Source: an uncultured Clostridia bacterium
GTDB lineage: Bacteria > Bacillota > Clostridia > Lachnospirales > UBA5962
NCBI GenBank assembly: GCA_946481295.1
Contig: CAMLLW010000001.1
Coordinates: forward strand, 62,001-126,000
Direction: 5' to 3'
DNA length: 64,000 nt
Shown here: one piece after another, positions 3,026 through 40,257 of the stretch
How positions within the stretch are numbered: the stretch's first letter is position 1
Layout of the letters: the number at the start of each line of letters is the position of its first letter
The notes under the pieces: generated by a model
Told to the model about the DNA's origin: nothing
What the model saw: only the letters and a program-made list of their open reading frames with translations
The model's database searches: none
Translations under genes and position numbers: made by a program

Positions 3026-3077
3026 ACTTGTCATATATTTATATATATATATTTATATACTTAATAATGTATTTAAC

Positions 3078-3325
3078 ACGTTGATAAGGAAGAGTAAAAA
3101 ATACAATTTGTTTTTCAGAGAGAACTTGCTGTAAGCTGAGAGCGGTTTAAACAAACATTTTTGAAAACTACCTTGGAGTGACTCTAATACAGTCCGTTGA
3201 TTACGTTATAATCTTAATTAAGTGGTTTTAAACAATTAGGGTGGAACCGCGGAAGTTTTACTATGTGAATATTCAAGCTTTCGTCCCTTTCTTATTTAAT
3301 AAGAAAGAGACAAAAGCTTTTTTTA
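3078..3325 (+). promoter_or_regulatory. T-box riboswitch (threonine) controlling thrS
   Basis: This leader reads the charging state of tRNA-Thr and decides between termination and antitermination upstream of thrS. The T-box sequence AGGGTGGAACCGCGG is at 3238-3252. Stem I begins near 3078 (GATAAGGAAGAGTA) and contains the usual CAGAGAGAA and GTAAGCTGAGAG elements. Aligning the GAA...GGAG part of the specifier loop with other T-boxes places the specifier triplet at 3167-3169, reading ACT (Thr), followed by the usual A. The terminator helix is at 3275-3319, followed by a T run. Specifier and downstream gene agree. Confidence 0.95.
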
Positions 3326-17369: not shown

Positions 17370-18659
17370 TTAATTAATACTTATATTTTCATTTATATTA
17401 TTATCATCTAAACTATTTTCTTTATTAGAATCTTTTACTGCAATTAAAAGCTTATTGTACCATTTTAAACTTTCTATATAAGAATCATATACATCAGATG
17501 CACTGATTTTATTTAGTATTAAACTTACACATACTTCTTGCCAATTTGCAGATTCATAGTCTTTAACAAACTTATATATATTATAAAAAGGTCCAGAATT
17601 ATTTATTAAAGCATCTTTTATATGTTTTGAAACTTTTAATACACTTAATGCTTCATCTATATTTACATCTAAAACAACGTCTAATACAGAAAATAATCCC
17701 ATTAAAAAAACACTTTCTGATTCTTTTTCTAAATCAAAATGTTTAGATAAGTTTTCGGAAAATCTAGCGCGTACTAATGATAATTTGTTAATTTCATTTG
17801 GACTGTCTGACATTAAACTTGAACATACAGCTGTAAGAGTCCATTTTCTAAGTTCTTTTTGACCTATTAATGCTGTAGCTTGTGTAAGTGTTTTTATTTC
17901 TTGTGTTACATCAACTTTTAAAGAATTAACTATATTTAATAAAGAAATAGCTAATGCTGTATCTTTTTCTATAATTTTAGCTACTTCATTAATATCAAAA
18001 TTTGTATCTTGAACTAGATTTATAAGTTGTATAGAATTAACTTTAATTGGTGAAATAGTATTTTGACCTAATGTTAAAGGTGTTCTATAAATTTTTCCTT
18101 CAAATGCAGAGTAACCAGTTGCTCTTGTTATATTAAAAGTTTGAATTGTATTTACATGTGTTGCAATTCTTTTAGCATAAGGATAAAGTGCGAGAATATT
18201 AGAAGATTGTTTTCTACTAATATTTTTTTGATTTATTAAAATAAAATCCATTAATTCTATTATAGAGTGAAATTTTTGATAATTATTTGAAGATATTTTA
18301 AATCCAAATGAGTAACCATCAGACTTATATTTTTTTATTTTTTTTATATATATATCTTCTAAAATTATATTTTCATCTAATAGGAATATAATTTTTTCTT
18401 TAGATAGATTTTTATATGTTTCTAAACCAGTTAATAACATTATTGTAGTTATAGGTAAAAATATTGGTGAATTATTAGAAAAAGCTTCTGTTCCTATCTC
18501 ATTTACTATATTTAATATAGGAGGAGATATATTATCTTCAATGCAATTATATATTTGATCAGATATAAATGGTCTTTCTGCATTGTAATATTTAAAGTAA
18601 TAATATTGTACTTCCATATCGAAATTAAGAACCGGCACAGCATTTATAAATAAATTCAT
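17370..18659 (-). CDS. HDOD-domain protein with degenerate EAL-like N-terminus
   Basis: This 429-aa protein resembles the COG3434 family (B. subtilis YuxH type): an EAL-like region (about 1-185) followed by an HDOD domain (about 190-390, TGYSAFEGKIYRTPL linker, then NEVAKIIEKDTALAISLLNIVNS). The catalytic EAL motif and metal-binding acidic residues of c-di-GMP phosphodiesterases are not visible, so the N-terminus may only bind a ligand or partner. These proteins are thought to be signalling adaptors. The ATG at 18659 is about 10 nt after a G-rich ribosome-binding site; the in-frame TTG at 18668 is too close to it. It lies antisense between the str and S10 operons. Confidence 0.8.
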   Translation of the reverse strand: MNLFINAVPVLNFDMEVQYYYFKYYNAERPFISDQIYNCIEDNISPPILNIVNEIGTEAFSNNSPIFLPITTIMLLTGLETYKNLSKEKIIFLLDENIILEDIYIKKIKKYKSDGYSFGFKISSNNYQKFHSIIELMDFILINQKNISRKQSSNILALYPYAKRIATHVNTIQTFNITRATGYSAFEGKIYRTPLTLGQNTISPIKVNSIQLINLVQDTNFDINEVAKIIEKDTALAISLLNIVNSLKVDVTQEIKTLTQATALIGQKELRKWTLTAVCSSLMSDSPNEINKLSLVRARFSENLSKHFDLEKESESVFLMGLFSVLDVVLDVNIDEALSVLKVSKHIKDALINNSGPFYNIYKFVKDYESANWQEVCVSLILNKISASDVYDSYIESLKWYNKLLIAVKDSNKENSLDDNNINENISIN

Positions 18660-18756
18660 TATTAACAAACCCCCCTGTTAATATATTTATTTCAATATTA
18701 AAGTTTTAAATAGTAAATTAGCTTTGTAATACAAGCATTACTACTAATTAAAATAA

Positions 18757-18801: not shown

Positions 18802-18830
18802 TTGAAAGAATATCTTATATATAGTATAAT
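18802..18830 (+). promoter_or_regulatory. promoter of the S10 operon
   Basis: TTGAAA (18802-18807) and TATAAT (18825-18830) are separated by 17 bp, placing the start of transcription near 18837, about 245 nt before rpsJ. Confidence 0.75.
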
Positions 18831-18836
18831 TCTAAA

Positions 18837-19082
18837 TGTTGTGACATTAGAGCGTTGATATAGAAGGTTGCAAACTTAAGTTTAATTTCTATGGAGCGAT
18901 GTCTAGTTCAGGAAACCGGGCGACAAAGAGTCACTGTAACAATCAAAAGTGTAAATAAACTAAACATATTTAAAATAGAGTTTAGCTCATGTTAAATAAC
19001 ATGATACGCTAGGGAGAGTGTACAGTCGTTACTTGTCGTACTGAAGTATATTAAAAGGTGCGAAAAGGAGGGACTTTTTTTT
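18837..19082 (+). ncRNA. long structured leader of the S10 operon
   Basis: Some 245 nt separate the inferred transcription start from the rpsJ ATG. There is no ORF, but many helices can be drawn: GACAT/ATGTC (18843-18847 with 18899-18903), a local hairpin at 18901-18924 built on GTTC-GG/CC-GGGC, CTAAAC/GTTTAG (18960-18965 with 18980-18985) and TCATGTTA/TAACATGA (18987-18994 with 18997-19004). A long-range pairing joins CGACAA (18921-18926) and GTAAC (18936-18940) with GTTACTTGTCG (19028-19038). No T run follows, so control would be at translation. Function as a ribosomal protein leader is inference from position. Confidence 0.5.
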
Positions 19083-19400
19083 ATGGCTAATCAAAAAATT
19101 AGAATAAGTCTTAAAGCATATGATCATAAACTTATTGATCAATCTGCTCAAAAAATAGTTGAAACTGCTAAAAAAACAGGAGCACAGGTATCTGGGCCTA
19201 TTCCATTACCTACAAAAAAAGAAGTTATTACGATTCTTAGAGCAGTTCACAAATATAAAGATTCTCGTGAACAATTTGAAATGAGAACACATAAAAGACT
19301 TATAGATATTTTGTTGCCTACACAAAAAACTGTAGATGCATTAACTCGTTTAGATTTACCTGAGGGTATAGACATAACTTTAAAAACAATGAATTATTAA
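19083..19400 (+). CDS. rpsJ: 30S ribosomal protein S10
   Basis: This 105-aa head protein of the 30S subunit has the family motif [32 protein letters not shown]-like core. The ATG at 19083 follows AAAAGGAGGGA. First gene of the S10-spc-alpha superoperon, behind the structured leader. Confidence 0.97.
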
Positions 19401-40092: not shown

Positions 40093-40235
40093 TATAAAAA
40101 AAACACTTAAGGCATACCGTCAAGTGTTTAAAAGCGATATCCTTATCTTTCAATAAAAATATTGACGGAATTAGCACCTGAATATATCTGGTTGCTGGGC
40201 TTCTTAGGGCCGGTCCCTCCACCACTCTAGATAAG
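40093..40235 (-). promoter_or_regulatory. SAM-I (S-box) riboswitch with terminator, upstream of metN
   Basis: On the minus strand the aptamer runs from about 40235 to 40142. It contains AGTGGTGGAGGGA (40226-40214), the CCCAGCAACC segment and GGTGCTAATTCC, closed by P1 arms CTTATCT/AGATAAG. A terminator stem (AAACACTT/AAGTGTTT, 40129-40122 with 40108-40101) and T run follow. SAM binding should stop transcription of the methionine importer. Confidence 0.96.
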
Positions 40236-40257
40236 TTGTATTAGGTTTTTATAATGT

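Follow-up and report, generated by a model that had tools for sequence, protein, structure and literature searches.

The S10 ribosomal protein leader (r-leader) of Clostridia is described by Eckert and Weinberg (2020; PMC7247131) as fundamentally the same as a motif found earlier in Firmicutes (Yao et al., 2007), which their work extends. The leader in front of rpsJ in the window, meaning the whole analysed stretch of 64,000 nucleotides, shares with the Rfam model of this family (RF03136) the position before rpsJ, the P1/P2 core and a score above the gathering cut-off, whereas the model lacks the P3 helix, the P5 hairpin and the sequestor considered below and draws a UGUC/GACA pairing. In Clostridioides difficile and relatives, another structured RNA of the rpsJ 5′ UTR, the rpsJ motif RLC-47-1, was proposed as an r-leader and is reported from three Peptostreptococcaceae genera only (PMC11109978). 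Compared by description alone, it resembles the window leader in being a structured RNA in the rpsJ 5′ UTR of a Clostridia family. The L4-regulated leader of the E. coli S10 operon acts on both translation and transcription (PMC10931766). Like it, the window leader is long and structured, precedes the same operon and would act on translation, but an intrinsic terminator was not found, and no described sequence or structure of the E. coli type was matched, RF03136 being the sole Rfam match in a cmscan search at relaxed threshold (no other family up to E = 10). Translational riboswitches with antisequestor/sequestor platforms alternate between helices that exclude each other, and in one of these the Shine-Dalgarno (SD) region is buried. 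Such exclusive helices, one of them over the SD region, are also predicted for the window leader; its ligand is, however, presumed to be a protein, and cmscan matched no small-molecule aptamer family.

The rpsJ locus and its promoter

The promoter and the leader of ~245 nt before the rpsJ ATG at 19083, both claimed in an earlier note on this DNA, were recovered (Table 1), as was the absence of any terminator-like site from the window leader (terminator scan). Among the relatives, 120 of 126 leaders carry a −10 element near their start, mostly 6-7 nt upstream, compared to 25% in shuffled sequence. This conservation argues for transcription starting at the leader rather than just upstream of rpsJ, a start which the earlier note had named as evidence against its proposal. 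As the upstream neighbour, a gene for an HDOD-domain protein, lies on the opposite strand, the leader requires its own promoter. The HDOD gene sits between tuf and rpsJ, where the str gene group gives way to the S10 group. Downstream of rpsJ follow the ribosomal protein genes of the S10 and spc operons, including the one for L4 (PF00573). A 34-codon reading frame starting at ATG 18891, spotted by eye, was discarded, as its start is not kept in relatives. Elsewhere in the window, a T-box leader (3072-3291, + strand) and a SAM riboswitch (40140-40237, − strand) score above their Rfam gathering thresholds.

Table 1. Positions of the rpsJ leader, its helices and its neighbours in the window.
Feature	Position	Strand	Evidence
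HDOD-domain protein gene (432 aa), upstream neighbour	17370-18668	−	domain match
Promoter TTGAAA (18802), 17 nt, TATAAT (end 18830)	18802-18830	+	−10 at equivalent place in relatives
Whole leader	18838-19082	+	predicted transcription start near 18837
RF03136-covered part, known r-leader core	18847-18926	+	47 bits, gathering 35.1
P1 hairpin, AUAGAA 18860-18865 / UUCUAU 18887-18892	18860-18892	+	core-pair covariation
P2 hairpin, GUCU 18901-18904 / GGGC 18918-18921	18901-18921	+	register by covariation (pair 55-68)
P3 5′ strand (proposed antisequestor), CGACAA 18921-18926 + ACUGUA 18933-18938	18921-18938	+	covariation, folding
Variable insert closed by P4, AGUGUA 18948-18953 / UACGCU 19005-19010	18948-19010	+	in MFE fold
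GAUACGCUAGG, window form of the conserved GACACACACGG / GAAACACCCGG motif	19003-19013	+	relatives' leaders
P3 3′ strand, UACAGU 19021-19026 + UUGUCG 19033-19038	19021-19038	+	covariation, folding
Proposed sequestor hairpin, AGUC 19024-19027 / GACU 19072-19075, CUU 19032-19034 / AAG 19065-19067, P5 inside; excludes P3	19024-19075	+	covariation, folding
P5 hairpin, CGUACU 19037-19042 / GGUGCG 19057-19062	19037-19062	+	tree-aware covariation, p < 0.0005
SD core GGAGG of rpsJ	19067-19071	+	sequence
rpsJ (ribosomal protein S10), first S10-operon gene	19083-19400	+	PF00338

The catalogued core and the long-range helix P3

The window leader matches RF03136 over the full model (1-81) with 47.0 bits, and this is the only copy in the source genome; within the window's order, 210 of 295 genomes contain a match above the cut-off. 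The match immediately precedes rpsJ and is itself preceded by a promoter, and the P1 helix of the family is present with covariation. The leader is a member of the catalogued S10-Clostridia r-leader family. The suggestion of the earlier note that the RNA could be new is thus ruled out by a family that already covers the 5′ third of the leader, and it was the comparison with the Rfam ribosomal leader families, proposed in that same note, which revealed it. That the S10 operon has a structured leader here was borne out by the MFE fold of the RNA (z-score −2.18; 6 of 200 shuffles equally stable), the RF03136 match and the covarying helices. The 81-nt model stops at CGACAA and leaves the last ~150 bases outside. 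As the long-range helix lies 3′ of the model, that part was tested on relatives, using an alignment of 126 non-redundant leaders (rpsJ upstream regions), an alignment restricted to the 3′ domain (A1, 50 sequences) and a covariance model built from A1 (R1).

Within the core, the P2 register GUC[A/C]..[U/G]GGC is supported by tree-aware simulations, with trees derived from the leader alignment itself (p ≤ 0.001), and no null pair was as strong in a column-pair scan. The outer P2 pairs drawn by Rfam, UGUC/GACA (18900-18903 / 18922-18925 in the window), are formable, but this pairing of CGACAA is without tree-aware covariation support (p = 0.32/0.13) and is broken in two leaders (L173 and L183). 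With P2 in the supported register, GACAA is free for P3; C18921 is able to pair in either helix. The second hairpin of the RF03136 consensus structure is probably a mis-registered helix, and the model may need revision. A pairing of GACAU (18843-18847) with AUGUC (18899-18903) received modest support (p = 0.025/0.009); its formation would be at the expense of P2, and it may contribute to the switch discussed below. In a covariation scan over all column pairs, significance was reached by pairs of P1 and P2 alone, as there is little variation in P3 and the sequestor inside the order; for these two, hypothesis-based and alignment-free tests were therefore used.

The 3′ domain is strongly conserved in relatives, in the order CGACAAGgUCACUGUAC, variable hairpins, GACACACACGG nnn GUGUACAGUCACCGCUUGUCGUACU, loop and AGUACGAAAAGGAGGCGACUUUUUUUAUG. 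R1 detected it in 133 of 196 genomes of the order (118 of 151 among those of good quality) and, in a sample of the class, in 40 of 291 genomes, with weak matches outside the window's order; all 30 loci fetched from the class search contained rpsJ. One genome (G170) possesses two copies of the 3′ domain (C139:2126-2287 and C74:14887-15096) along with two RF03136 matches, which may reflect contamination or a second rpsJ copy. In two Clostridia genomes (G319:C1:852522-854517 and G488:C1:478237-481288), the rpsJ leader is preceded, at a distance of a few hundred bases, by 23S rRNA sequence, which is in pieces in G319.

In the window, CGACAA/UUGUCG (P3a) and ACUGUA/UACAGU (P3b) form one helix, and forcing both halves yields the MFE fold itself (−60.0 kcal/mol). 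Of the long-range helix which the earlier note had drawn from 18921-18940, the CGACAA part stood and covaries, whereas GTAAC/GTTAC (18936-18940 / 19028-19032) is peculiar to the window, the 3′ segment of the relatives reading CACC or UUGA. Its ACTGT/ACAGT pairing does not compete with this helix but is its inner half, P3b. A competing pairing does appear to exist, in the form of an SD sequestor sharing bases with P3, and only the partners assigned to it have to be replaced.

The window P3 duplex alone is just mildly more stable than its shuffles (−12.0 compared to −7.2 kcal/mol, p = 0.039), and the proof therefore rests on conservation in relatives. Within the order, where P3 varies little, plain pair counts are likewise mildly above shuffles. 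In an alignment-free strand swap across 67 non-redundant leaders from divergent Clostridia, own strands paired at −19.4 and swapped strands at −16.0 kcal/mol (z = −10.7; 0 of 20,000 permutations as extreme). Tree-aware covariation gave p = 0.001/0.016 for P3a and p = 0.007/<0.0005 for P3b. The helix is rewritten yet kept in several divergent Clostridia, as CACAGUAC/GUACUGU in L223-L225, GCUGUAC/GUACAGC in L226 and UUUAUACAC/GUGUAUGAA in L104, also in L244 and L263, and within the window's order as CGAGA/UCUCG in L183. Judged by these covariation and swap tests, P3 is kept by compensation across divergent Clostridia. P4 is the weakest among the helices (paired in 59-77% of alignment cells). A well-paired ACAC/GUGU hairpin just 5′ of P3b was rejected, as it showed no covariation (p = 0.12 and 0.26).

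A predicted switch at the SD region

The element AGUC starts inside the ACAGU of P3b, and its partner GACU follows directly after the SD. A single long hairpin across the SD results in most leaders, where CC pairs with the SD bases GG and the CUU/AAG pairing and the P5 stem (GUACU/AGUAC) are added. AGUC/GACU is replaced by AGCC/GGCU in L033, L165 and L166, by GGAC/GUCU in L043, by AGGG/CUCU in L174 and by AGC/GCU in L183. The compensatory changes whose lack would have spoken against the earlier note are thus present for P3 and for AGUC/GACU. A haplotype permutation gave p = 0.0007 for the sequestor, and the tree-aware test gave p < 0.0005 in both directions for AGUC/GACU, while a slid control and a P3b-versus-SD-side control were not significant in it. 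For the structure including P4 and P5, A1 contains 15 double-changed cells (5.4 ± 2.2 by chance), and its covariation score was reached in 0 of 500 shuffles. CUU/AAG is supported as well (tree-aware p = 0.03/0.001); for CC/GG with the SD itself, the same test found no covariation support (p = 0.08/0.27). As the window has UU at the CC position, its sequestor is weaker, and the computed SD accessibility is already 0.80. Three leaders from divergent Clostridia (L045, L072 and L086) keep P3 and have lost AGUC/GACU, and the sequestor is therefore lineage-limited. Where GCC lies opposite the SD, the GGC needed for a perfect helix is almost always missing (one exception, L191, in a count without kinship correction); with the consensus partner, GCC would reach −11.4 kcal/mol. 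This near-absence is a possible sign of tuning.

P3 and the sequestor have 19024-19026 (AGU) and, through CUU, 19033-19034 in common. As the A-G bases of AGUC are invariant, it is the shared U and CUU that make the case for exclusivity. The two folds appear close in energy: forcing the sequestor instead of an open SD changed the energy by −0.8 ± 2.7 kcal/mol on average (123 leaders), and the window favours the P3 fold (−60.0 compared to −56.3 kcal/mol). Both pairing cores occur in 106 of 126 leaders, and 103 leaders also have P5; in these counts the window leader is scored too low, its SD region being displaced by one base in the alignment. Here, two conserved helices draw on common bases and one of them lies over the SD region, as in the antisequestor/sequestor platforms mentioned above. 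We therefore favour, with a probability of roughly two thirds (0.68) and from sequence comparison and folding, the reading that this known Clostridia S10 r-leader is extended beyond the Rfam model by a translational antisequestor/sequestor expression platform. The P3/sequestor platform is apparently previously undescribed.

In the ON fold of such a switch, P3 would pair CGACAA..ACUGUA with UACAGU..UUGUCG and leave the SD region mostly free. In the OFF fold, the 3′ strand of P3 would fold onto the SD region (AGUC/GACU and CUU/AAG, with P5 inside) and thereby block translation of rpsJ and of the genes coupled to it. As transcription reaches the SD only after P3 is complete, P3 would form first, and ON is likely the default. 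A surplus ribosomal protein encoded in the operon might bind at the P1/P2 core, and perhaps also at the ACACxCGG motif, and destabilise P3; that a ribosomal protein tips the switch to OFF we infer from the r-leader context, and naming L4 as its candidate is guesswork based on the E. coli case (PMC10931766). In a simple similarity search for rRNA mimicry, no motif of the leader performed better than shuffled motifs against rRNA loci; the best case, a 10-nt GAAACACCCG match beside rRNA genes taken as 5S, was within the null. The output of the switch would be translational. Action on translation initiation, as the earlier note had proposed, is indeed most likely, considering the lack of a terminator and the predicted SD-sequestering pairing.

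It is conceivable, albeit rather improbable, that no refolding takes place: P3 could be a permanent scaffold, with the strand between its halves pairing with the SD region as a ligand-stabilised pseudoknot. Pairing of UC.CC, between P3b and P3a, with GG.GA could indeed occur with most of P3 intact, and L043, L165, L166 and L174 lose the outermost P3b pair and keep the SD-side pairing. Yet AGU belongs to both covarying helices, its U is compensated on both partners in L033, and the supported CUU/AAG pairing competes with P3a. We regard it as very unlikely that the published 81-nt core regulates alone, through a bound protein that blocks initiation or recruits decay, and that the 3′ domain is a spacer or an mRNA-stability element. 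Such an arrangement would fit with Bacilli leaders, which place the core directly before the SD without a P3 domain, but a spacer does not need an SD-side pairing that covaries. The least credible of these ideas is that the leader works by transcription attenuation. A hairpin of the CCCAGG..CCUGGGUUUUU type was seen by eye inside the P3 loop in other Clostridia families; it was, however, not seen in the inspected leaders of the window's order, and the window leader has no terminator-like site to which attenuation could be assigned.

Lineage variants and implications

In 36 of 38 Bacilli rpsJ leaders, ACACACCCGG, or a variant differing in one or two bases, is located in the apical part of P1, and the P3 domain is absent from these 36 leaders (e.g., L076, L044 and L067). 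Clostridia carry the ACACACCCGG motif 3′ of P2, inside P3. It looks like one protein-binding module at two places of the same r-leader. The CCCAGG..CCUGGGUUUUU-type hairpin of other Clostridia families is terminator-like, its loop being too long for the terminator scan, and occurs in L219-L222, L227, L228, L230, L231, L045 and L086; this suggests transcription attenuation in those families. Tentatively, and with somewhat less than even odds, the Clostridia S10 leader could be a two-part regulator with an overlooked expression platform, in which a shared protein-binding core (P1/P2 and ACACxCGG) would be combined with lineage-specific outputs: the window's order would use a translational switch by SD sequestration, other Clostridia would rely on a terminator-like hairpin within the P3 loop, and Bacilli do without the P3 domain.

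Genes of the S10-spc cluster account for a large fraction of all ribosomal proteins. As far as the surveyed literature goes, its control in Clostridia is predicted only, and a switch defined to exact bases makes this control simply testable. The curated Rfam model omits a conserved half of the leader, which affects the annotation of many gut Clostridia. If the two-part architecture is true, the apical P1 position of ACACACCCGG in Bacilli would be a natural rearrangement of one r-leader.
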